DNA of 64,000 nt, taken from Nocardiopsis sp. FIRDI 009. GTDB lineage: Bacteria > Actinomycetota > Actinomycetes > Streptosporangiales > Streptosporangiaceae. Of the stretch, positions 18,946 to 31,645 are shown in pieces. Made by a program: the position numbers and the translations under genes. Position 1 is the stretch's first letter; the number at the start of each line of letters is the position of its first letter. The notes below the pieces were generated by a model. The model was given only the letters and a program-made list of their open reading frames with translations, had not been told where the DNA came from and made no database searches. Where the stretch lies: positions 124,001-188,000 of the forward strand of contig NZ_QPNC01000018.1 in the NCBI RefSeq assembly GCF_003386285.1, in the 5' to 3' direction.

Positions 18946-20637
18946 ATGCGCCCTCCAGCTCCACGACCCCCCGCCGACACCGTCGCCGACCCCGTCCTGG
19001 TGCTCGGCGCGGGGCCGGTCGGCCAGACCGCGGCCCTGCTCCTGGCCCGGCGCGGGGTGCCCGTCCGGATCGTCGACACCAGACCCGAACGCGACGCCGT
19101 CGGCTCCAAGGCCATCTGCCAACAGCGCGACGTCCTGGACGTGTGGGACTGGCTCGGCGCCGGAACCATCGCCGAGGAGGGCCTGACCTGGGACACGGCC
19201 CGCACCTTCTACCGCGACCGCGAACTGTTCAGCGTCCGCCTGCCCGACCCCGGCGCCTCGCCCCTGCCCCCCTTCGTCAACATCTCCCAGTCCCGCACCG
19301 AGCAGGTCCTCGACCACCTCCTGGACGAGGCCGGCGTGCCGACCCTGTGGAACCACCGCGTCACCGGCCTCACCCAGGACGACGAGGGGGTCGACGTCGA
19401 GTGCGCCACCCCCGGCGGGCCGGTCCGCCTGCGCGGCTCCCACGCCCTGGCCTGCCTCGGCGCGCACGGCGGCGTCGTCCGCGACGCGCTCGGCCTGGGC
19501 TTCGAGGGCACCTCCTTCGACGACCGCTTCCTCATCTGCGACATCCGCGCCGACCTGCCCGGCTGGGAACGCGAACGCCGCTTCTACTTCGACCCCGAGT
19601 GGAACCCCGGCCGCCAGGTGCTCATCCACCCCTGCCCCGACTCGGTGTTCCGCATCGACTGGCAGGTCCCCGCCGACTTCGACCTCGACGCCGAACGCGA
19701 CACCGGCCGCCTGGACGCCCGTATCCGCCAGATCATCGGCGACACCCCCTACGAGATCGTCTGGAACTCGGTCTACCGCTTCCACACCCGCGTGGTGGAC
19801 CGCATGCGCGCGGGCCGCGTCCTCCTGGCCGGGGACTGCGCCCACCTGGTCGCCCCCTTCGGCGCCCGCGGCCTCAACTCCGGCGTCCAGGACGCCGAGA
19901 ACGCCGCCTGGAAGCTCGCCTACGTACGCGCCGGATGGGCGGGGGAGGAGCTCCTGGAGAGCTACCACACCGAACGCCACGCCGCCGCCCTGGAGAACGC
20001 CGAGGTCACCAGCGCCACCATGCGCTTCCTCGTCCCCCACGGTCCCCAGGAGCACGACCGAAGGCTCAGCGTCCTCGACCGCGCCCTGACCGACCCCTCC
20101 GCCCACCCGCACGTCGACTCCGGACGCCTGGCCGAACCCTTCTGGTACACCGACTCCGCCCTGACCACCCCCTGCCCCGAACGCCCCTTCGGCGGGCGCC
20201 CCCCGCGCGGACAGGCCCCCGTCCCCTGTCCCGGGGTGATCCTGCCCGACGCGCCCGCCGTCCTGCCCGGCTCCGCGCGACCCACCCGGCTGCGCCCCCT
20301 CCTGCGCCAGGGCCTCACCCTCCTGCTCGGCCGCGCCCCCGAGGGGCAGGACCCCGCCGCCCTCCTCGACCGCGTCCGCGCCACCGCCGAGCACGCCTGC
20401 CCGGCCCCGACCACCGCCCTGTACCTGGCCGACGTCGACACCACCGGCGCCCTCACCCGCGCCCTGGACCCCGCCCCCGGGCAGGTGTGGGTCGTGCGCC
20501 CCGACGCCCACATCGCCGCCGTCGTGCCCGGAACCGACACCGCCGCCCTCCGCGCGGCCCTGCGCGCCGCCCTCGGCCTGGCGTCCGACCGGGCCGAGCC
20601 CGGCACGCGACACCCGCGGACCACCACGACCCGCTGA
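18946..20637 (+). CDS. FAD-dependent aromatic monooxygenase (MhpA/PheA-like)
   Basis: A 563-residue class A flavin hydroxylase. FAD-binding GxGxxG is in VLVLGAGPVGQTAALLLARR near residue 20; the FAD/NADPH-binding GD motif is VLLAGDCAHLVAPFGARGLN near 290, followed by SGVQDAENAAWKLAYV. A thioredoxin-like C-terminal domain follows, as in 3-(3-hydroxyphenyl)propionate hydroxylases. In this operon the expected role is para-hydroxylation of a hydroxyphenylacetate to homogentisate. The exact substrate is inferred from the neighbours. ATG 18946 follows CGGAG. Confidence 0.87.
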   Translation: MRPPAPRPPADTVADPVLVLGAGPVGQTAALLLARRGVPVRIVDTRPERDAVGSKAICQQRDVLDVWDWLGAGTIAEEGLTWDTARTFYRDRELFSVRLPDPGASPLPPFVNISQSRTEQVLDHLLDEAGVPTLWNHRVTGLTQDDEGVDVECATPGGPVRLRGSHALACLGAHGGVVRDALGLGFEGTSFDDRFLICDIRADLPGWERERRFYFDPEWNPGRQVLIHPCPDSVFRIDWQVPADFDLDAERDTGRLDARIRQIIGDTPYEIVWNSVYRFHTRVVDRMRAGRVLLAGDCAHLVAPFGARGLNSGVQDAENAAWKLAYVRAGWAGEELLESYHTERHAAALENAEVTSATMRFLVPHGPQEHDRRLSVLDRALTDPSAHPHVDSGRLAEPFWYTDSALTTPCPERPFGGRPPRGQAPVPCPGVILPDAPAVLPGSARPTRLRPLLRQGLTLLLGRAPEGQDPAALLDRVRATAEHACPAPTTALYLADVDTTGALTRALDPAPGQVWVVRPDAHIAAVVPGTDTAALRAALRAALGLASDRAEPGTRHPRTTTTR

Positions 20638-20683
20638 TCCCGACCCACCACGGCTCGACGACCACGGTAAGGAGATCACCGCC

Positions 20684-21889
20684 ATGGCCCACTACCGGAA
20701 GGTGGGCGAGGTGCCCCGCACCCGCCACACCCGGCACCGCAACCCCGACGGCGGCCTGTACTACGAGGAGCTGATGGGGGAGGAGGGCTTCTCCAGCGAC
20801 TCCTCGCTCCTGTACCACCGCGCCATCCCGTCGGCGATCGTCGACGCCGCCGAGTGGGAGCTGCCCGACCTGACCCGCACCCGCAACGCGCCCCTGGTGC
20901 CCCGCCACCTGAGGCTGCACTCGCTCTTCACCGACCGGGACTGGAAGGCCGCCGACGTCGTCGGGTCCCGCCGCCTGGTCCTGGGCAACGACGACGTGCG
21001 CATCTCCTACGTCGTCGCCGGGGCGCCCTCGGAGCTGTACCGCAACGGCATCGGCGACGAGTGCGTCTACGTCGAGTCCGGCCAGGCCCGAGTGGAGACC
21101 GTCTTCGGCGCCCTCGACGTCGGCCGCGGCGACTACGTCATCCTGCCGCGCGCCACCACCCACCGCTGGGTGCCCACCGGCGACGGACCCCTGCGCGCCT
21201 ACGTCGTGGAGGCCAACAGCCACATCGCGCCGCCCAAGCGCTACCTGTCGCGCTACGGGCAGTTCCTGGAGCACGCCCCCTACTGCGAACGCGACCTGCG
21301 CGGGCCCTCCGAGCCCCTGCTCGTCGACGGAGAGAACGTGGACGTGCTCATCAAGCACCGCGGCGACGGTCCCGGCGGCATCTCCGGCACCCGCTACACC
21401 TACCCCACCCACCCCTTCGACGTCGTGGGCTGGGACGGCTGCCTGTACCCGTACGTGTTCAACATCGACGACTTCCAGCCGATCACCGGCCGCGTCCACC
21501 AGCCGCCGCCCGTCCACCAGGTCTTCGAGGGGCACAACTTCGTCATCTGCAACTTCGTGCCCCGCAAGGTGGACTACCACCCCGAGTCCATCCCCGTGCC
21601 CTACTACCACTCCAACGTGGACTCCGACGAGGTCATGTTCTACTGCGGGGGCGACTACGAGGCCCGCAAGGGCTCCGGCATCGGTCAGGGGTCGATCTCC
21701 CTGCACCCGGGCGGCCACTCCCACGGCCCCCAGCCCGGCGCCTACGAACGCAGCGTCGGCGTGCACTACTTCGACGAACTCGCCGTCATGGTCGACACCT
21801 TCCGCCCGCTCGACCTGGGCGAGGGCGGCCTGGCCAGCGACGACGGCGGCTACGCCTGGACCTGGGCCGGAGGGAGGAGGAACCGGTGA
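20684..21889 (+). CDS. hmgA: Homogentisate 1,2-dioxygenase
   Basis: A 401-residue cupin dioxygenase that opens the ring of homogentisate to maleylacetoacetate using Fe(II) and O2. The iron ligands are visible in the C-terminal cupin: His in VPYYHSNVDSDEVMFYCGG, the nearby Glu of that motif, and His in LHPGGHSHGPQPGAYE. The substrate region GRVHQPPPVHQVFEG is also typical. Length is somewhat shorter than human HGD (445) but normal for actinobacterial forms. AAGGAG precedes ATG 20684. Its stop overlaps the start of the unknown gene (GTGA). Confidence 0.95.
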   Translation: MAHYRKVGEVPRTRHTRHRNPDGGLYYEELMGEEGFSSDSSLLYHRAIPSAIVDAAEWELPDLTRTRNAPLVPRHLRLHSLFTDRDWKAADVVGSRRLVLGNDDVRISYVVAGAPSELYRNGIGDECVYVESGQARVETVFGALDVGRGDYVILPRATTHRWVPTGDGPLRAYVVEANSHIAPPKRYLSRYGQFLEHAPYCERDLRGPSEPLLVDGENVDVLIKHRGDGPGGISGTRYTYPTHPFDVVGWDGCLYPYVFNIDDFQPITGRVHQPPPVHQVFEGHNFVICNFVPRKVDYHPESIPVPYYHSNVDSDEVMFYCGGDYEARKGSGIGQGSISLHPGGHSHGPQPGAYERSVGVHYFDELAVMVDTFRPLDLGEGGLASDDGGYAWTWAGGRRNR

Positions 21890-22737
21890 CCCACCCCCTC
21901 TACCACCAGCTGTTCGACGACGCCGCGCTCTTCCCGCCCGGCAACGCCCCCATGGGCCAGGCCGTGCCCGCCCACCGCGGGTACCGCTCCGGGTGGCGCG
22001 ACGGCTACGTCGGCCCGTTCCTGGTCGCCGACGGCCGCGTGGCCGAACTCCGCGCCGTCCTGGCCCGGGAGGAACCGGCCCACGAGACCCTCGCCGTCGC
22101 GGTCACCGTCCCCGGCGGCCCCGACGGAATCGGCCCGGCCGTCGAGTCGGTCCTGGCCGATCCCGCCCTGCGGCTGGTCGGGGTCGAGGCCGCGGCCGAA
22201 CCCGGCGCGGCCGCGACCGTCGCCGGGCACCTCACCCGCCACCTGCCGCCGGGCGCGTCCGGGTTCGTGGAGGTCTCCCGCGCGGGGAACGTGCCCGCTG
22301 ACCTGGACGCCCTGGTCGGCACCGGCCACAGCGCCAAGTTCCGCACCGGCGGCCTGACCCCCGAGGCCCACCCCGGCGAGGCCGAACTCGCCGCGTTCGT
22401 GACCGCCGTCCTCGCCCGCGGACTCCCGTTCAAGTGCACCGCCGGGCTGCACCACGCCGTCCGCCACACCACCGCCGAGGGCTTCGAGCAGCACGGGTTC
22501 CTCAACCTGCTCGTCGCCACCGCCGCAGCCGCCGACGGCGCCGGGACCGACGACCTGACCGGGATCCTCGCCGACCGCGACGGCGCCGCCCTGGTCGACG
22601 CCGCCGCCCGGCTGACCCCCGACCAGGCCGAGGCCGTGCGTGCGAGGTTCGTCTCCTTCGGCACGTGCAGCGTCGTCGAACCCCTGGAGGATCTGGTCAC
22701 CCTCGGCGCCCTGGTCCCCGACCCCCGGCCGCACTGA
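21886..22737 (+). CDS. Unrecognised conserved-looking protein between hmgA and fahA
   Basis: A 283-residue soluble protein that I cannot assign to a family. Features: YHQLFDDAALFPPGNAPM at the N-terminus, then alternating strands and helices of alanine/leucine-rich character (VAVTVPGG, VGVEAAAEPG, FVEVSRAGN), AKFRTGGLTPEAHP near residue 145, and FKCTAGLHHAVRHTT and HGFLNLLVATAA near 180-205. The pattern suggests a TIM-barrel-like alpha/beta fold with His/Lys/Cys residues near the ends of strands. GTG 21886 overlaps the hmgA stop and follows GGGAGGAGG, so expression is coupled. The pathway here lacks a maleylacetoacetate isomerase, and this protein is the candidate (inference). Confidence 0.8.
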   Translation: MTHPLYHQLFDDAALFPPGNAPMGQAVPAHRGYRSGWRDGYVGPFLVADGRVAELRAVLAREEPAHETLAVAVTVPGGPDGIGPAVESVLADPALRLVGVEAAAEPGAAATVAGHLTRHLPPGASGFVEVSRAGNVPADLDALVGTGHSAKFRTGGLTPEAHPGEAELAAFVTAVLARGLPFKCTAGLHHAVRHTTAEGFEQHGFLNLLVATAAAADGAGTDDLTGILADRDGAALVDAAARLTPDQAEAVRARFVSFGTCSVVEPLEDLVTLGALVPDPRPH

Positions 22738-22758
22738 CCACCACCACAGAAAGCAGCG

Positions 22759-23976
22759 ATGATGCCCGACACCTGGCTCGACCTGGACCCGGACGCGCCG
22801 TTCGGCCCGGCGACCCTGCCCTACGGGGTGTTCAGCACCGACACCGACCCCGCGCCGCGCACGGGCGTGGCGATCGGTGACCACGTCCTGGACCTCGGCG
22901 CCGCCGCCCGCGCCCTGGACGCGCCGTTCGCCGACACCGTCGCCCGGCCCGACCTCGACGCTCTCCTGGCCGCCGGACGGCCCGTCTGGGACGCCGTACG
23001 CGCCGCCCTGACCACGTGGTTCACCGACCCCGGCCACGCCGACGCGATCCGGCCGCACCTGGTCGAGCGGTCCCGGGCGCGCCTGCACCTGCCGTTCACG
23101 GTCGCCGACTACGTGGACTTCTACGCCTCGGAGCACCACGCGAGCAACGTCGGCCGGATGTTCCGGCCCGACCAGGAGCCGCTCACGCCCAACTGGAAGC
23201 ACCTGCCCATCGGCTACCACGGACGCGCGGGCACCGTCGTGGTCTCGGGGACCGACATCGTGCGCCCCACCGGACAGCGCAAACCCCCGACCGAGCCCGC
23301 GCCCCTGTTCGGGCCCTCCGCGCGCCTGGACATCGAGGCCGAGGTCGGCTTCGTCGTGGGCACGCCCAGCCGCATGGGCGAGCGCGTCGCCGTGGACGAC
23401 TTCGCCGACCACGTCTTCGGGGTGTTCCTGCTCAACGACTGGTCCTCGCGCGACCTCCAGGCGTGGGAGTACGTGCCGCTCGGCCCGTTCCTGGGCAAGT
23501 CCTTCGCCACGTCGGTCTCGCCGTGGATCGTGCCGCTGGCCGCACTGGAGTCGGCCCGCGTCGAGCAGCCCGCCCAGGACCCCGAACCGCTGCCCTACCT
23601 GCGCGGCAGCCAGCCCTGGGGGCTGGAACTGGACCTGGAGGTGCGGATCAACGGTCACGTGGTCTCGCGTCCGCCGTTCGCCACGATGTACTGGACGGCC
23701 GCCCAGCAGCTCGCGCACATGACGGTCAACGGGGCGTCGCTGCGCACCGGCGACGTGTACGCCTCGGGCACGGTCAGCGGGCCCGAGCGCGAGCAGCGCG
23801 GGTGCCTGCTGGAGCTGACCTGGGGCGGCAAGGAACCACTGCGGCTGCCCGACGGCACCGAGCGCACCTTCCTGGAGGACGGCGACGAGGTGGTCATCAC
23901 CGCGACCGCGCCCGGGCCGGACGGGACCAGGGTGCACTTCGGCGAGGTGACGGGACGGATCCTGCCCGCCCGTTAG
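22759..23976 (+). CDS. fahA: Fumarylacetoacetase
   Basis: A 405-residue enzyme that hydrolyses fumarylacetoacetate to fumarate and acetoacetate, the last step of homogentisate breakdown. It has an N-terminal SH3-like domain and then the catalytic FAH domain. Key blocks: YVDFYASEHHASNVGRMFRP (catalytic His and metal Asp), LPIGYHGRAGTVVVSG, EAEVGFVVG (metal Glu), LNDWSSRDLQAWEYVPLGPF (metal Asp, catalytic region) and GDVYASGTVSGPE. It is the last gene of the operon, 21 bp after the unknown gene. Either Met of ATGATG at 22759 could start it. Confidence 0.95.
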   Translation: MMPDTWLDLDPDAPFGPATLPYGVFSTDTDPAPRTGVAIGDHVLDLGAAARALDAPFADTVARPDLDALLAAGRPVWDAVRAALTTWFTDPGHADAIRPHLVERSRARLHLPFTVADYVDFYASEHHASNVGRMFRPDQEPLTPNWKHLPIGYHGRAGTVVVSGTDIVRPTGQRKPPTEPAPLFGPSARLDIEAEVGFVVGTPSRMGERVAVDDFADHVFGVFLLNDWSSRDLQAWEYVPLGPFLGKSFATSVSPWIVPLAALESARVEQPAQDPEPLPYLRGSQPWGLELDLEVRINGHVVSRPPFATMYWTAAQQLAHMTVNGASLRTGDVYASGTVSGPEREQRGCLLELTWGGKEPLRLPDGTERTFLEDGDEVVITATAPGPDGTRVHFGEVTGRILPAR

Positions 23977-24065: not shown

Positions 24066-24341
24066 ATGAGCACCGGATTTCGACCCACGGAAGCGGACAC
24101 ACAACTCATCGAACGTCTGAAGAGCCCGGGGGAGTCGACCAGCGAACTGATCCGGCGTGGACTGCGCTCCCTGGCCAGGGAGGAAGAACGGCGCAGAGCC
24201 TACGAGGACATGATCCGTATCGCCGAATCCGGCGAGAATCCTGCCGATGATCCGGACGAATGGGAGTACACGGCCGACGGTCGTATCCGCGTTATCGGCA
24301 CTGACACGACCGTGAGCGCACGTCGGGAGGGGCCCCGTTGA
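24066..24341 (+). CDS. Ribbon-helix-helix (CopG-like) antitoxin
   Basis: A 91-residue protein. The N-terminal 45 residues fit a ribbon-helix-helix DNA-binding domain (FRPTEADTQLIERLK, STSELIRRGLRSLAREEE). The C-terminal acidic tail (ESGENPADDPDEWEY) would wrap the toxin. The start is uncertain: ATG 24066 has GGAGG only 1 bp upstream, while in-frame TTG codons at 24048/24051 lie 10-13 bp after GAGGAG but inside the operator. The gene overlaps the toxin gene by 4 bp (TTGA). Antitoxin function is inferred from size, order and partner. Confidence 0.82.
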   Translation: MSTGFRPTEADTQLIERLKSPGESTSELIRRGLRSLAREEERRRAYEDMIRIAESGENPADDPDEWEYTADGRIRVIGTDTTVSARREGPR

Positions 24342-24715
24342 TCCGAGGCGCTGTCTACCCGATTGAGTCGGGGGACGCCAAGCGCGGCCATGAACAGCGT
24401 GGACGCCGTTTGGGGGTGGTCGTCAGCGATGGCCCACGTGTGTGGTCCACGGTAACCGTCCTCCCCACATCGACCAGTGCCCAGGCGGCGCTGTTCAGGC
24501 CCCGGTTGCACATCACCGGACGCGACACCCCGGCCCTCACCGACCAGATCCGGACCATCGACACCAGCTACGTGGTCGGTCACCCGGTGGGGTACCTGGA
24601 CCACACCGACATGGCGCAGGTGGAGTACGCGCTGGGCCTGTGGCTGGCGTTGAGCATCGACAGCGGTTTCCAGTCCGAAACCGCTGTTCGTCTCATGACT
24701 GAGTCGGTCGTCTGA
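24338..24715 (+). CDS. MazF/PemK-type toxin
   Basis: A 125-residue protein beginning IRGAVYPIESGDAKRGHEQR, followed by RRLGVVVSDGPRVWSTVTVL and PTSTSAQAALFRP, the N-terminal strands and the conserved PTST region of MazF endoribonucleases. It continues LTDQIRTIDTSYV (usual DQIRxxDxxRL). Such toxins cleave mRNA at short motifs to halt growth. TTG 24338 overlaps the antitoxin stop, so synthesis is coupled. Confidence 0.87.
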   Translation: MIRGAVYPIESGDAKRGHEQRGRRLGVVVSDGPRVWSTVTVLPTSTSAQAALFRPRLHITGRDTPALTDQIRTIDTSYVVGHPVGYLDHTDMAQVEYALGLWLALSIDSGFQSETAVRLMTESVV

Positions 24716-26146: not shown

Positions 26147-26596
26147 TCACTCAGGCCGACGCCCCACCGCCACGTCCACCTGGTTCACCGCGTTGGCCGT
26201 GGCGATCGAGAACACCAGGTGCGCCAGTTCGCCCTCACTGAACCGCGCCCGGGCCTCCTCCCACACCCGGTCGGGCACGGGGCCGCCCCCGGCGACCGTC
26301 ATCGCCTCGGCCAGGTCCAACGCCGCCCGCTCCTTGGGCGTGAACAGGTCGGTCTGCCGCCACACGGCGACCGCGTGCAGGCGCCGGTCGCTCTCGCCCT
26401 TCCCGGCGGCGGTCTGGGTGTGCCGGTCCACGCCGTGGGCGTTGCCGCTCAACTGGGCGGCCCGCACCAGCACGAGTTCGGTCAGCAGGGGGTCCAGGAA
26501 GCCCACCGCCTTGTCGTGCAGGGCGGCCAGGGCCGTGTTCAACTGCGGAGCCACCTGGCGCGGCTCCATCCGGGGCTCGTAAGCAACGTCACTCAT
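26147..26596 (-). CDS. Carboxymuconolactone decarboxylase (AhpD-like) family protein lacking CxxC
   Basis: A 149-residue all-helical CMD-fold protein (LTELVLVRAAQLSGNAHGVD, RHTQTAAGKGESDRRLHAVA, FTPKERAALDLAEAMT). In AhpD and related proteins the second helix carries a redox CxxC (GCxxCVDxH). Here it reads GNAHGVDRH, so both cysteines are absent. Peroxidase activity is therefore not expected; a decarboxylase-like or binding role remains possible. It lies directly downstream of the three-PLP-enzyme operon and could be its last gene (49-bp gap). Confidence 0.82.
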   Translation of the reverse strand: MSDVAYEPRMEPRQVAPQLNTALAALHDKAVGFLDPLLTELVLVRAAQLSGNAHGVDRHTQTAAGKGESDRRLHAVAVWRQTDLFTPKERAALDLAEAMTVAGGGPVPDRVWEEARARFSEGELAHLVFSIATANAVNQVDVAVGRRPE

Positions 26597-26645: not shown

Positions 26646-27842
26646 TCACAACTCCCGGAGGACCGCCAACAGCCCGTCGATCTCCGCCACGGTGTTGTAC
26701 ACGTGCAGACTCACCCGCACCGAACCCTCCCCCGGCTGGGCCCCCGCCTGGCAGTGGCTGTCCGACCGCACCATGAACCCGTGGCTGAACAGGATGAACC
26801 CCAGATCCCCCGAGTCGATCCGCTCGTGCCGGAACGCGACGATCGACGTACGCCGCTGCACGGGGGAGTCCTCGGCCAGACTCAGCTGACACCCCAGCAC
26901 CTCGAAGGCGGGCAGTTCGCTCAGCCCCTCGGTCAGCCGGGCCGCCAGCCCCGCGCACCAACGGTCGATCCGCTCCAGTCCGGCTTCGTCCAACCAGTCC
27001 AGCGCAGCCGCCAGACTGGCGATCCCCACCGTGTTCGGCGTGCCGTCCCACCCGCCGGGGGAGAACCGCGGCCCCCGCGCCTGCCGAGCCCACACCGCCC
27101 CCGTCCCGGGCAGCGCCAGCGCCTTGTGCCCGGAGAAGACCACGAAGTCCACGTCCGACGCGGCCACCGACACCGGCAGGTGCCCCACGCTCTGCGCCGC
27201 GTCCAGGCAGATCACCGCGTCCGGTCCGACCGCCGCGCGCACGCGGTGCACGTTCATGTCGCCCCCGTAGACGTGGTGCACGTGGGTGACGGCCACGAAC
27301 CGCGTCCGGGGCCCGGCCAGCGCGGCCAGCGCGTCGGTGTCGTAGTCACCCGACCCCGCCTGCCTCGGCATCTCCACCACCCGCACCCCGATCCCGCGCC
27401 GCGCCAGCACATCGCGCGCCTCCAGCCACGGCGACAGGTTGGCCTGGTGGTCGGCGAACGGCACCACGATCTCGTCCCCGTCCGCCAGGAACCCCGTCAG
27501 CCAGTCCAGGGCGATCCTGCGCAGCCCCTCGGTCGTCCCGCCGACGAAGTGCACCGCCGATCGCGCCGGCTCCGGATCATCGAGGAACGCCTTGACCCGC
27601 TCCCGGGTGTCCTCCACCATCGTCGTCGTCGCGTTGGCCCAGGGGTAGGTGCCGCGCCCCGCGTTGGCGTTGCCGGTGACCAGGTACTCCTGGACCGCCT
27701 CCAGCACCGCGCGCGGCTTCTGCGACGTCGCGGCGCTGTCCAGGTAGGCCAGGTCCGGGTGCCCGGTGATGATCGGGAACTGCTCGCGCAGGGGCCGCTG
27801 CCAGTTCCCGAGCTCCTCCCACGCCCGCCCCACCTCAATCAC
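26646..27842 (-). CDS. Class V aminotransferase, cysteine desulfurase (SufS-like)
   Basis: A 398-residue fold-type-I PLP enzyme. It opens with HPDLAYLDSAATSQKPRAVL, the hallmark of SufS/CsdA desulfurases. His that stacks on PLP is in FADHQANLSPW, Asp is in VICLDAAQSVGHLPV, and the PLP lysine is in VVFSGHKALALPGTG. The C-terminal loop VRSDSHCQAG keeps the catalytic cysteine (compare RxGHHC in SufS), so it can probably form a persulfide. It ends RVSLHVYNTVAEID. GTG 27842 overlaps the preceding gene by 8 bp (GTG 27833 is possible). A role passing sulfur to the upstream rhodanese fusion is inferred. Confidence 0.87.
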   Translation of the reverse strand: MIEVGRAWEELGNWQRPLREQFPIITGHPDLAYLDSAATSQKPRAVLEAVQEYLVTGNANAGRGTYPWANATTTMVEDTRERVKAFLDDPEPARSAVHFVGGTTEGLRRIALDWLTGFLADGDEIVVPFADHQANLSPWLEARDVLARRGIGVRVVEMPRQAGSGDYDTDALAALAGPRTRFVAVTHVHHVYGGDMNVHRVRAAVGPDAVICLDAAQSVGHLPVSVAASDVDFVVFSGHKALALPGTGAVWARQARGPRFSPGGWDGTPNTVGIASLAAALDWLDEAGLERIDRWCAGLAARLTEGLSELPAFEVLGCQLSLAEDSPVQRRTSIVAFRHERIDSGDLGFILFSHGFMVRSDSHCQAGAQPGEGSVRVSLHVYNTVAEIDGLLAVLREL

Positions 27843-29154
27843 GCACCAGCGGGGCACCCGCGTCGCGCCAGGCGATGATCCCGCCCGCCAGGCTGCGCGC
27901 GTCGGTGTGACCCATCCGGGTGAGCAGCGCGGCGTAGCGCGCCGACTGCTCACCGACCGGGCATGCCAACAGGACGGGCTGCCGGGTACTGAACGGCAGC
28001 CCGCCGCGCAGCATCTCGTCGAACAGTTCGTCCACGATGTTCACCGATCCCTCGATGTGCAGCGCCGCGTAGGCGAAGGGGCTGCGCAGATCCACGACGA
28101 GCGGCCGCTCCTTCGCGATCCAGCCACGCGCCTCCGCCACGTCCAGGGCCGGGGCGGCCAGCACCTCCTCCTCGGTCAGGCTCGCCACCGAGTTGGCCTC
28201 GGGCGGCCGGTGGAACAGGTCCGGGCGCAGCCGCCGCACGTAGCTGAGGTAGCTCTCGCACCGGTCGCACACGATGAACACGGCCGTGGCCCGCCCGGTC
28301 AGCGTCGCGTCGACCTCCCGCAGGTGCCGCACCGCCCCGAAGTAGGCCGCACCGCCCGTCGGACCGGCCAGGATCCCGCACCGGCGCACCAGCGTCAGCA
28401 TCCCCTCGACCGCGTCCTCGGCGCTGACGTCCTCGATCGTGTCGTACACGCCCGGGTCGAACAGCCCCACCTCGTGCACCTCGTCGATGGTGCGGATGCC
28501 GGGGATGAAGTCGGACTTGGCACCGACCAGCCCGACCACCCGCGTCCCCGGGTCGTGCTCGCGCAGCACCCGCGCCACCCCCGTGGAGGATCCCGCGGTG
28601 CCCACGCACGCCACGAAGTACTCCGGGGCACGTCCGCCCAGGTCGGCGACGATCTCCGGCCCCGTGCCCGCCGCGTGCGCGTCGGCGTTGCGCGGGTTGA
28701 AGTACTGGTCGGTGTGCAGGTGGGCGCTGTCGGGCGCGGACAGTTCCTGGTGGATGAGGGTGAGCGGGTCGTCGGTCAGGGTCGGGTCCAGGCACTCGGT
28801 CCGCCCGGGCAGCTCCTCGATGTGCGCCCCCAGGAGCAGGAGCAGGTCCTTGATCTCCGGCACCCGCATCCGGTTGGTCACGCTGCGGAACGGCAGACCG
28901 TGCATCCCCGCGATGGCGGCCAGCGCCTTGGCGGTGTTGCCGCTGGACAGTTCCACGACCGTGGCGCCGGACCGCCGGGCCTCGGCCAGCCCCGGCCGTG
29001 CCATGTTCCACGCCGCCCGGTCCTTGACCGAGCCGAACGGGTTGAGCATCTCCAGCTTCGCGTACAGGTCGATGTTGCGCAGGCCGTGCACGGCCGGGTC
29101 TATGCGCACGAGCGGGGTGTCGCCGATGGCGTCGGTGATGCTGTCGTACCTCAC
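27835..29154 (-). CDS. Cysteine synthase-like PLP enzyme fused to rhodanese domain
   Basis: A 439-residue fusion. Residues 1-320 are a fold-type-II PLP enzyme: GDTPLVRIDPAV, PLP lysine in NPFGSVKDRAAWNMA, phosphate loop VELSSGNTAKALAAIA, VGTAGSSTGVARVL and GPTGGAAYFG. Residues about 345-439 are a rhodanese domain: LVVDLRSPFAYAALHIEGSV and active-site loop LLACPVGEQSARYA with the persulfide Cys, ending in LAGGIIAWRDAGAPL. A zinc-ribbon-like pair DRCESY lies near 285. GTG 29154 overlaps the upstream stop (GTGA). The domain pairing suggests making or consuming a sulfur-bearing amino acid. Confidence 0.87.
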   Translation of the reverse strand: MRYDSITDAIGDTPLVRIDPAVHGLRNIDLYAKLEMLNPFGSVKDRAAWNMARPGLAEARRSGATVVELSSGNTAKALAAIAGMHGLPFRSVTNRMRVPEIKDLLLLLGAHIEELPGRTECLDPTLTDDPLTLIHQELSAPDSAHLHTDQYFNPRNADAHAAGTGPEIVADLGGRAPEYFVACVGTAGSSTGVARVLREHDPGTRVVGLVGAKSDFIPGIRTIDEVHEVGLFDPGVYDTIEDVSAEDAVEGMLTLVRRCGILAGPTGGAAYFGAVRHLREVDATLTGRATAVFIVCDRCESYLSYVRRLRPDLFHRPPEANSVASLTEEEVLAAPALDVAEARGWIAKERPLVVDLRSPFAYAALHIEGSVNIVDELFDEMLRGGLPFSTRQPVLLACPVGEQSARYAALLTRMGHTDARSLAGGIIAWRDAGAPLVRD

Positions 29155-30629
29155 GCCGACCTTCCTTCCGGACGCGGAACCGGCCAGTACTCCTCGTCGA
29201 GCGTCCACCGCCAGCGCCCCGGCCCCCCGCCGATCGCGACCTTGCGCGCCGGGGGTTGGCGCTGGGCGTGGGTGGCGGCGAAGTCCATGCAGTAGCCCGC
29301 CGTGTTGGCGAAGGCCAGCAGGTCGCCGGGGCATGGGGTGCGGGGGAGGAAGACCCGGCGGCGGGTGATCAGGTCGCTCTCCAGGCACAGGCTCCCGGTG
29401 AGGAACACACCTGCGGGCTCCTTGGCGTCGGCGGGGTCGGCCGGGCCGCTGCCGCCCCTGTCCAGCAGCAGCGGGTCGACGAGCACGCCGTGGTCCTCCA
29501 GCCCGATGTCGGTGGCCTTGGCGGCGAGTCGCAGCACGGGCTCGCCCGCCCGCGTGGTGCGGGTCTCCAGCACGCGCGCCAGGGTCAGGCCGCACTGGTC
29601 GAGCAGGGCGCGGCCCGGTTCGACGTACAGGTCGTAGAGGTTCTCCAGCAGCAGACCGCCCAGCGGACGGCCCAGGGTCGGCGCGGTCCGCGACAGCAGC
29701 GCGTCCAGGTAGGCGGGGCCCGCGTCGGGGCGGTGGGCGGGGTACAGGCCGAGCGACCCGCGTACGGTGCCGCCCTCGGCGCGCAGGCCGTAGCCGTGCC
29801 CGCCCCACGTCAGCGGCGGTCGCTCGCCCAGGACGGCGCGGGTCAGTTCGGTGGTGTAGCGGTCCCACTCGTCCCGGTGTTCGACGTAGCCGGTCCCGAA
29901 CCCGCCGCCGACGTCGACGATCCTGGGCTGGAAGCCCCGGGCGCGCAGGGTGTTCATCGCGTGCAGGCAGCCTTCGAGGGCGACCGCCTTCTCGTCGAGG
30001 CTGACGGTGTCCAGGTGGTAGGCGGTGCCGACGGGGTCGATCGCGTCGCGGTGCCGTTCCAGGTCGTCCAGGAGGCCGTCCAGGGCCGCGGCGGGCACGC
30101 CGAAGCGGCTCTCGCGCGAGCGGATCGCCACTCCCGGCGAGGTGAACCCGGACAGCCGGACCAGGACGCGCACCGGGGCCAGCCGATGGTCGCGGACGAT
30201 CCCGGCCAGGGTGTCCAGCTCGGTGGGGCCGTCGATGTGGACGGTGGCGCCCACCAGCGCGGCCAGCCACAGGAACTCCGGTCCCTTGGGGCCGGAGGCC
30301 ACGATCCGGTCGCCGGTGAACCCGGCGCCGAGCGCGTGCCGCAGTTCGTCGAGTGAGGCGACGTCGACGCCCGCGCGGGTCGCCGCCAGGTGCCGGACCA
30401 GGGCGCTGGACCGGTTGGCCTTGTGCGCGAAGAACTCGCGCCCGCCCAGCCGGTGGGCGCGACGGACGTCGGCGAAGCGCTCGGCGTTGGCCGCGATCCG
30501 GTCGGGTAACAGCACGTCGAGGGGGGATCCGAGCGCGTCGACCAGGGTGTGGAGGAGGTCGGACGAGTCCAGGAGGGGCGCCAGCGGGGGTTCCAACCGC
30601 GGTCGCAGGTACAGGGGGGCCTCGTCCAC
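29151..30629 (-). CDS. Y4yA-like PLP-dependent enzyme (Orn/DAP decarboxylase fold, type III)
   Basis: A 492-residue alanine-racemase-fold PLP enzyme related to diaminopimelate/ornithine decarboxylases. The PLP lysine is in EFFAHKANRSSALVRHLA near residue 70, the phosphate region is IVDVGGGFGTGY near 240, the PLP-binding Glu is in LYVEPGRALLDQCG near 350, and C-terminal FANTAGYCMDFAATHAQRQP supplies the second-subunit loop. It is longer than typical decarboxylases (about 420). It resembles the rhizobial Y4yA group, whose neighbour Y4xP is also cysteine-synthase-like. It is the first gene of the operon, with start GTG 30629. Confidence 0.85.
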   Translation of the reverse strand: MDEAPLYLRPRLEPPLAPLLDSSDLLHTLVDALGSPLDVLLPDRIAANAERFADVRRAHRLGGREFFAHKANRSSALVRHLAATRAGVDVASLDELRHALGAGFTGDRIVASGPKGPEFLWLAALVGATVHIDGPTELDTLAGIVRDHRLAPVRVLVRLSGFTSPGVAIRSRESRFGVPAAALDGLLDDLERHRDAIDPVGTAYHLDTVSLDEKAVALEGCLHAMNTLRARGFQPRIVDVGGGFGTGYVEHRDEWDRYTTELTRAVLGERPPLTWGGHGYGLRAEGGTVRGSLGLYPAHRPDAGPAYLDALLSRTAPTLGRPLGGLLLENLYDLYVEPGRALLDQCGLTLARVLETRTTRAGEPVLRLAAKATDIGLEDHGVLVDPLLLDRGGSGPADPADAKEPAGVFLTGSLCLESDLITRRRVFLPRTPCPGDLLAFANTAGYCMDFAATHAQRQPPARKVAIGGGPGRWRWTLDEEYWPVPRPEGRSA

Positions 30630-30823: not shown

Positions 30824-31645
30824 TCAGCACAGCTCGACGATGACGCCGAAACGCCGCAGGGTGCGAAAGACGTCGTCGAAGTAGCCGAGCCGTCCCTCAG
30901 GGGCGAGGCGGACGTCGGCCAGTGCGCGCCGTGACGCTCGGGCGTCGTGCCACACGAGCCGGAAGGGGGGCTCGGCGGCGAACCCGCCGGACAGGCAGTC
31001 GCGCATCGCGTCCATACCCGATCCGTAGTAGCCGCCGGGGCCGTCGAGCGCCTCGCCCAGGGCGCAGTGCAGGCCGGGGACGTCGCTGACGGCCCGGCCG
31101 TCCAGGTGGTATTCGCCACCCGAGCGCGGGAGCGGGGTGTCGGCGCGGGTGAAGTGCAGGTGGAGCGCCAGTCGGAGCCACGCGTTCCTGCCCTCGGCGG
31201 AGAAGGCGGTCCACTGGTTGAGGGAAGTCGGGACGCCCTTTCGCCACAGGTCCCACACCGGCCGCGCGGTCACTGGGAGACGCTTGTCGTCCCCGTCGGC
31301 GATGGGGATGTCGAGGAGCGCGCCGCCCGTCGCCGACGGCTGGGCTCCCGCCGTGTCCAGGGTGACCGAGAACCGTTGCATCTCCCGCCCGCTCGCGTCC
31401 AGTGGGCACAGCTCAACCCTGACCGGGGCGCGATCGTCCGCGCGGCGCAGGGCGTCGACCAGCGCTGTGGCGGGTTCGCAGCCGATGAGCCGGAACGGAC
31501 TTCCCGTCGCGTCCCCGGGGGCGACAAACAGGCCCTCGACGTCCGCGCACCGTCCCCACAGCTGTGTCCCCTTCCAGGAACGGCGCGTCAGCGCGTACCC
31601 CACCGGGAACGGCCGGTCCCACGTGACCCACGCCCGGCCGACCAC
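30824..31645 (-). CDS. Barstar-family protein with N-terminal domain
   Basis: A 273-residue protein. The last 95 residues are barstar-like (ribonuclease inhibitor): HLDGRAVSDVPGLHCALGEA, then GGYYGSGMDAMRDCLSGGF and FRLVWHDARASRRAL, ending in GRLGYFDDVFRTLRRFGVIV. The N-terminal region (residues 1-170) has WGRCADVEGLF and is of unknown function; similar N-terminal regions occur in actinobacterial barstar proteins. No barnase-type RNase gene is adjacent, so it may be an orphan immunity protein. GTG 31645 follows GGAGGGG, 3 bp after the stop of the TetR gene, so they are co-transcribed. Confidence 0.82.
   Translation of the reverse strand: MVGRAWVTWDRPFPVGYALTRRSWKGTQLWGRCADVEGLFVAPGDATGSPFRLIGCEPATALVDALRRADDRAPVRVELCPLDASGREMQRFSVTLDTAGAQPSATGGALLDIPIADGDDKRLPVTARPVWDLWRKGVPTSLNQWTAFSAEGRNAWLRLALHLHFTRADTPLPRSGGEYHLDGRAVSDVPGLHCALGEALDGPGGYYGSGMDAMRDCLSGGFAAEPPFRLVWHDARASRRALADVRLAPEGRLGYFDDVFRTLRRFGVIVELC

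Follow-up and report, generated by a model that had tools for sequence, protein, structure and literature searches.

What is made by an operon that joins three PLP enzymes of three different fold types? The question is raised by a locus in the 5.8-Mb genome of Nocardiopsis sp. FIRDI 009, in a stretch of 64,000 nucleotides that is called the window here. Translations and junction sequences place three open reading frames, all on the minus strand, at positions 26646-30629; they are termed the trio below.

Gene layout and protein features

The trio and the gene that follows it comprise these features:

29151..30629, minus strand: Y4yA-like fold-type III PLP enzyme of the decarboxylase family, operon gene 1 (492 aa; Pfam Orn_Arg_deC_N, 5.6e-22)
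27835..29154, minus strand: fold-type II cysteine-synthase-like PALP enzyme with a C-terminal rhodanese, the fusion (439 aa; Pfam PALP, 2.2e-54, and Rhodanese, 5e-14)
27862..28137, minus strand: rhodanese domain of the fusion (Pfam residues 340-431; Cys398 of the CPVGEQS loop at 27961-27963)
26646..27842, minus strand: SufS-like fold-type I enzyme (398 aa; Pfam Aminotran_5, 7.1e-70; Cys364 codon at 26751-26753, Lys240 codon at 27123-27125)
26147..26596, minus strand: AhpD/carboxymuconolactone-decarboxylase-like gene (Pfam CMD, 1.4e-12), 49 bp 3' of the trio

The Y4yA and fusion frames overlap by 4 bp, the GTG start of the fusion lying inside GTGA, and the fusion and SufS-like frames overlap by 8 bp (GTGATTGA), with GTG again as the start codon of the SufS-like gene. 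An earlier note on this DNA had described an overlapping operon of three PLP folds; Pfam and NCBIfam concur with its fold types, and the CPVGEQS loop of the rhodanese and the SDSHC motif of the SufS-like enzyme are both present as claimed.

Can the three proteins be assigned to characterised families? None of them reached a curated NCBIfam equivalog cut-off. The Y4yA-like enzyme scored 93 bits as a diaminopimelate decarboxylase (lysA; cut-off 297.9), and the fusion scored 144.6 bits as SbnA (TIGR03945; cut-off 349.95) and 162.7-166.1 bits as a cysteine synthase (cysK/cysM; cut-offs 344-413). The SufS-like enzyme, at 243 bits, fell short of the TIGR01979 SufS-family cut-off of 475.1. Filing the proteins as LysA, SbnA, CysK/CysM or SufS was dropped because of these shortfalls. 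The SufS-like enzyme shares its fold and all key catalytic residues with the SufS/CsdA desulfurases, but it differs from them in this score and in its operon, which has no SufU/SufE gene; no suf gene of any kind lies beside the trio. E-values and folds do not fix the specificity of the trio enzymes.

Residue invariance was scored over 81 sequences. Cys398, Gly401 and Ser404 of the rhodanese, Lys44 of the PALP domain and Cys415 of the Y4yA enzyme are invariant (81/81), as are H132, Q217, H239, K240, R359, C364 and R376 of the SufS-like enzyme, which make up the full desulfurase catalytic set. Both cysteines to which sulfur handling had been ascribed, Cys398 of the fusion and Cys364 of the SufS-like enzyme, are thus kept in every sequence, and their equivalents are also retained in a sister subfamily that is about 48% identical.

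The fusion has the PALP-then-rhodanese architecture of the aspergillomarasmine A synthetase type, both by Pfam (PALP at residues 6-297, Rhodanese at 340-431) and by full-length structure match. The first structural matches of its AlphaFold model (pLDDT 82.5) are two entries for aspergillomarasmine A synthetase, 8h4h and 8h4q, the latter with O-phosphoserine (E 4e-24, TM 0.60/0.56, about 24% identity); as the rmsd is about 19 Å and the placement of the domains is unmatched, the 8h4h match backs the architecture and not the arrangement. The AlphaFold model of the SufS-like enzyme (pLDDT 81.4) matches E. coli SufS.

The surroundings of the operon are mixed. The AhpD-like gene has a 90-91% identical copy at the same position in two other Nocardiopsis loci and at no other trio locus; it is possibly co-transcribed with the trio, in Nocardiopsis only, and the usual CxxC motif of its product is apparently replaced (SGNAHGVDRH). 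Directly 5' of the operon lies a gene for a protein with a C-terminal Barstar domain (30824-31645, minus strand; Pfam PF01337), which is not conserved with the trio. Elsewhere in the window are a PemK/MazF-type toxin gene (24338-24715, plus strand; Pfam PF02452), with a frame just 5' of it whose end encodes a short antitoxin candidate resembling ribbon-helix-helix proteins, and what appears to be an aromatic-degradation cluster (18946-23976, plus strand) of FAD monooxygenase, homogentisate-dioxygenase-like and fumarylacetoacetase-like genes. Scans of the window returned no sigma-70-type promoter and no intrinsic terminator.

Conservation and distribution of the trio

Do the three genes travel together? 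The fusion alignment was used in a profile scan over 84,980 species genomes, and the best 80 loci were analysed, the true total being at least 80. These 80 loci come from Streptomyces, Kitasatospora, Actinoplanes, Micromonospora, Nocardia, Streptoalloteichus, Nocardiopsis and Streptomonospora; the closest relatives of the window operon among the matches listed are from Nocardiopsis, at 95% identity. All of the best 80 or so loci whose contig extends far enough have the genes in the order Y4yA, fusion, SufS-like.

In an even sample of 395 genomes of the class, the fusion and the SufS-like gene each occur in 18 genomes and the Y4yA gene occurs in 19. The same 19 of 395 genomes carry the trio once two cases are accounted for: in G265 only the fusion is missing, its neighbours being split over two contigs by an assembly break, and in G251 the SufS-like gene is present below threshold (L119). 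Two fragments, G428 and G421, had been candidates for rhodanese-less forms; in both the rhodanese is still encoded, beyond a small insertion or a shift of frame. The collinear order of about 80 loci and co-occurrence in the 395-genome sample establish the trio as a conserved unit, as the earlier note had suggested that a genome-context search might. Its further point, that relatives might carry the genes separately, has a divided answer: close homologues are never apart among the 395 genomes, whereas distant Y4yA relatives have other partners.

The trio is a patchy accessory trait, because the fusion occurs in 67 of 296 Streptomyces species, about a quarter, and in 4 of 151 species of the family to which the window belongs. 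In most Streptomyces a SAM methyltransferase is the fourth gene after the trio; in Nocardiopsis it is absent from this position, where the AhpD-like gene is found instead. Across loci the trio has no conserved partner gene for a dedicated exporter, an SbnB-like enzyme or a serine kinase.

Zinc-related neighbourhoods

What lies around the trio in relatives? Many loci have zinc genes nearby, which encode Zur, ZnuABC, proteins of COG0523 and additional copies of the ribosomal proteins S14, L28, L33 and L32. The same set is listed as the Zur regulon of S. coelicolor (PMC6103462).

The neighbourhood was taken as 10 kb around the trio, and the controls were 60 fragments of 20 kb taken at random from Streptomyces that carry the trio. 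By one criterion for both, such zinc genes lie near 21 of 82 trio loci against 1 of 60 controls (Fisher p = 3e-5), an ArsR regulator ending in DDHVAHIVLDAIHHAQE and a His-rich protein, both absent from the controls, bring in seven more trio loci, and the pooled zinc-homeostasis context amounts to 28/82 against 1/60 (p = 3e-7); these p-values are descriptive, because the categories were picked after the neighbourhoods had been seen and the loci are related. The C-terminus of this ArsR agrees with the alpha-5 pattern of zinc sensors. In three Streptomyces loci (L030:13487-14205, L040:13393-14207 and L049:14972-15647) a His-rich protein with repeated HxDH, followed by an ArsR of the zinc-sensor type, stands beside the trio.

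Thirteen changes of the zinc context map onto the fusion tree, and the arrangement of the zinc genes is variable. ZnuABC is divergent to the trio in L031 and L039, L078 and L081 have ZnuA directly 3' of the trio and in its orientation, and the alternative ribosomal protein genes are 5' or 3' of the trio depending on the locus. In about two thirds of the 82 loci, the window locus included, the 10-kb neighbourhood is free of zinc genes.

Is the trio itself under zinc control? With an AT-core Zur consensus that was fixed before the scan, and up to two mismatches allowed, Zur-like sites were found upstream of the Y4yA gene in 7 of 80 regions against 0.10 expected from controls. The published Zur motif, tGaNNatSatNNtCa (PMC5472717), matched 14 of 80 upstream regions, where 5.9 would be expected from control density and 0.96 from shuffled upstream regions; over control density the enrichment is modest. 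The window operon has no nearby site with two or fewer mismatches to the published motif, and short inverted repeats revealed no motif besides the Zur-like site in the trio upstream regions. With sites in a minority of upstream regions and none near the window operon, the pattern suggests that zinc control is likely in a subset of relatives.

One way to read these neighbourhoods is zinc-sparing sulfur mobilisation. SufU is a zinc-requiring protein, and the operon could supply a backup desulfurase with the rhodanese as a zinc-free acceptor in its place, while the two remaining enzymes would recycle amino acids. The zinc context, which consists mostly of zinc-sparing replacements such as the alternative ribosomal proteins, would suit this, and so would a SufS-like enzyme with all desulfurase residues; it accounts, however, for neither the obligate Y4yA partner nor the methyltransferase, and no suf gene adjoins the trio, so that we consider this quite improbable. 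Misannotated cysteine synthesis was rejected because it agrees with neither the obligate decarboxylase-family partner nor the zinc context.

Sister operon and distant Y4yA clusters

A sister operon (L014 and L118-L120) has the order SufS-like, a protein of about 425 aa, Y4yA, fusion. The N-terminal fold of the additional protein is unrecognised; its C-terminal domain, with CKHC (CxxC), is of the heavy-metal-associated type, by a match of 23.9-25.8 bits, close to or under the Pfam cut-off of 24.8. This protein is a second tie to metals. It is encoded at three loci:

L118:11771-13048, minus strand: CxxC protein of about 425 aa, sister operon
L014:9995-11257, minus strand: CxxC protein of about 425 aa, sister operon
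L120:5022-6311, minus strand: CxxC protein of about 425 aa, sister operon

More distant Y4yA genes adjoin genes for SbnA-like, SbnB-like, ParB/SbnI-like, opine-dehydrogenase and IucA/C proteins; an SbnB-like gene of the ornithine-cyclodeaminase family is seen only in these distant clusters and in no trio operon. On a plasmid of Rhizobium sp. Pop5 (L011:7486-17224), Y4yA, SbnA-like, octopine-dehydrogenase-family, IucA/C and iron-transport genes stand in a row, which suggests a candidate rhizobactin-type siderophore cluster. On the Agrobacterium tumefaciens pTi from walnut (L007:3182-12315), Y4yA, SbnA-like, SbnB-like and ParB-like genes directly follow phosphonate genes that include phosphoenolpyruvate mutase.

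Could the trio make an unusual amino acid or an amine by a pathway with no link to metals, its zinc neighbours being hitch-hikers on shared chromosomal regions? Most loci are without zinc genes, and Y4yA/SbnA-like pairs also occur in clusters unrelated to zinc, such as the one by the phosphonate genes on the Ti plasmid. Nevertheless, the enrichment of 28/82 against 1/60 extends across many clades and arrangements, and the sister operon encodes the protein with the heavy-metal-associated domain; a pathway apart from metals is in our judgement unlikely.

Comparison with known systems

Which characterised systems come closest? Aspergillomarasmine A synthetase and Fda4, of the fusadapamide cluster, are fungal enzymes in which, as in the fusion, a PALP domain is joined to a rhodanese-like domain; they use O-phosphoserine and provide the best full-length structure match of the fusion. 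They are accompanied by an oxidoreductase and an NRPS (Fda), whereas the partners of the fusion are a Y4yA decarboxylase and a desulfurase, and the aspergillomarasmine precedent leaves the requirement for a desulfurase unaccounted for. Fda4 joins O-phosphoserine with alanine, aspergillomarasmine A synthase joins it with aspartate, and SbnA joins it with glutamate (PMC12751119). Aspergillomarasmine A (AMA) is a metallophore for Zn, Ni and Co (PMC11091072).

In staphyloferrin B-type gene sets (SbnA, SbnB, SbnH and SbnI), too, an SbnA-like enzyme is combined with a PLP enzyme of type III from the decarboxylase family. The window trio differs in having neither an SbnB-like dehydrogenase nor an NIS synthetase, and in the fusion of its PALP enzyme to rhodanese. 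The Rhizobium candidate L011 has a Y4yA gene next to an SbnA-like gene; its octopine/nopaline dehydrogenase, IucA/C and iron transporters are all absent from the window. Rhizobactin is a chelator in which ethylenediamine is linked to alanine, lysine and malate (PMC7676072).

Actinobacteria offer a further parallel in EDDS (aes), a zinc-repressed aminopolycarboxylate with an ethylenediamine core, which is likened to the trio by these traits and not by gene content. Its [S,S]-EDDS genes in Amycolatopsis japonicum reportedly are Zur-regulated, as Spohn described in 2016. From the comparison with the fungal, staphyloferrin B-type and rhizobactin-type systems, the unit is best filed as a variant of the Dap/aminopolycarboxylate metallophore pathways. 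The earlier note had known of no described product, which still holds: a literature search on Y4yA, the gene trio and aesA-C found no paper that describes the set.

A possible route to a zinc metallophore

The unit repeatedly adjoins zinc-starvation genes, and for this reason the trio probably makes a small metal-binding molecule. The metallophore was absent from the earlier note and is proposed because the zinc context indicates it. We give about an even chance to the proposal that the three genes act as a single unit in the biosynthesis of a small metal chelator derived from amino acids, most likely a zincophore or its precursor.

How might such a chelator be assembled? The chemistry of Fda4, aspergillomarasmine synthesis and SbnA, together with the neighbourhoods of distant Y4yA genes, points to amine beta-replacement followed by decarboxylation. 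The PALP domain would remove the leaving group of O-phosphoserine, or of an acylated serine, to give an enzyme-bound aminoacrylate. The amine of a second amino acid would then add at the beta carbon, as in aspergillomarasmine A synthetase, Fda4 and SbnA, and yield a conjugate of the 2,3-diaminopropionate type. Decarboxylation of this conjugate by the Y4yA enzyme would produce an ethylenediamine-type ligand, a step that rhizobactin and EDDS both require. In most Streptomyces the SAM methyltransferase may then methylate the product.

The SufS-like enzyme and the rhodanese most likely form a persulfide relay, in which sulfane sulfur from cysteine would pass to Cys364 and on to Cys398 of the fused rhodanese. 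Simple return of the sulfur to the aminoacrylate would be a futile cycle; therefore it should either end in the product, as a sulfur ligand, or pass through the relay to another acceptor. The sulfur-transfer pathway of the earlier note survives in part, as the cysteines are invariant and sulfur in the product is possible; as the main point it gives way, since the products of aspergillomarasmine A synthetase and Fda4 are without sulfur.

Sulfur could also be central to the product, a sulfur-containing metallophore or antimetabolite with a thiol, thioether or persulfide. The SufS-charged persulfide of the rhodanese would then act as the nucleophile, or its sulfur would join the conjugate, and Y4yA would decarboxylate, for example, a lanthionine- or cysteine-type intermediate. 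Zinc accepts sulfur ligands readily, which would suit such a product, and both sulfur cysteines and the desulfurase set are invariant (81/81) and retained in the sister subfamily. The desulfurase partner is obligate here, and the fungal PALP-rhodanese enzymes are not reported with one (PMC12751119). Against this, cysteine sulfur added to aminoacrylate just remakes cysteine, so that a further acceptor has to be assumed, and the characterised enzymes of this architecture take amine nucleophiles; we regard the sulfur product as possible but doubtful. It is similarly tentative to propose a new class of zincophore, in which a desulfurase-charged rhodanese on a diaminopropionate-type synthase would provide a sulfur-bearing ligand that is decarboxylated by Y4yA.

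Should the product of the trio be a zinc chelator, a widespread and so far unattributed share of zinc acquisition in actinobacteria would be explained. The pathway would also be a bacterial counterpart to the chemistry of aspergillomarasmine, which is a scaffold for metallo-beta-lactamase inhibitors, and it would become possible to test what rhodanese domains do in PLP enzymes that catalyse beta-replacement.
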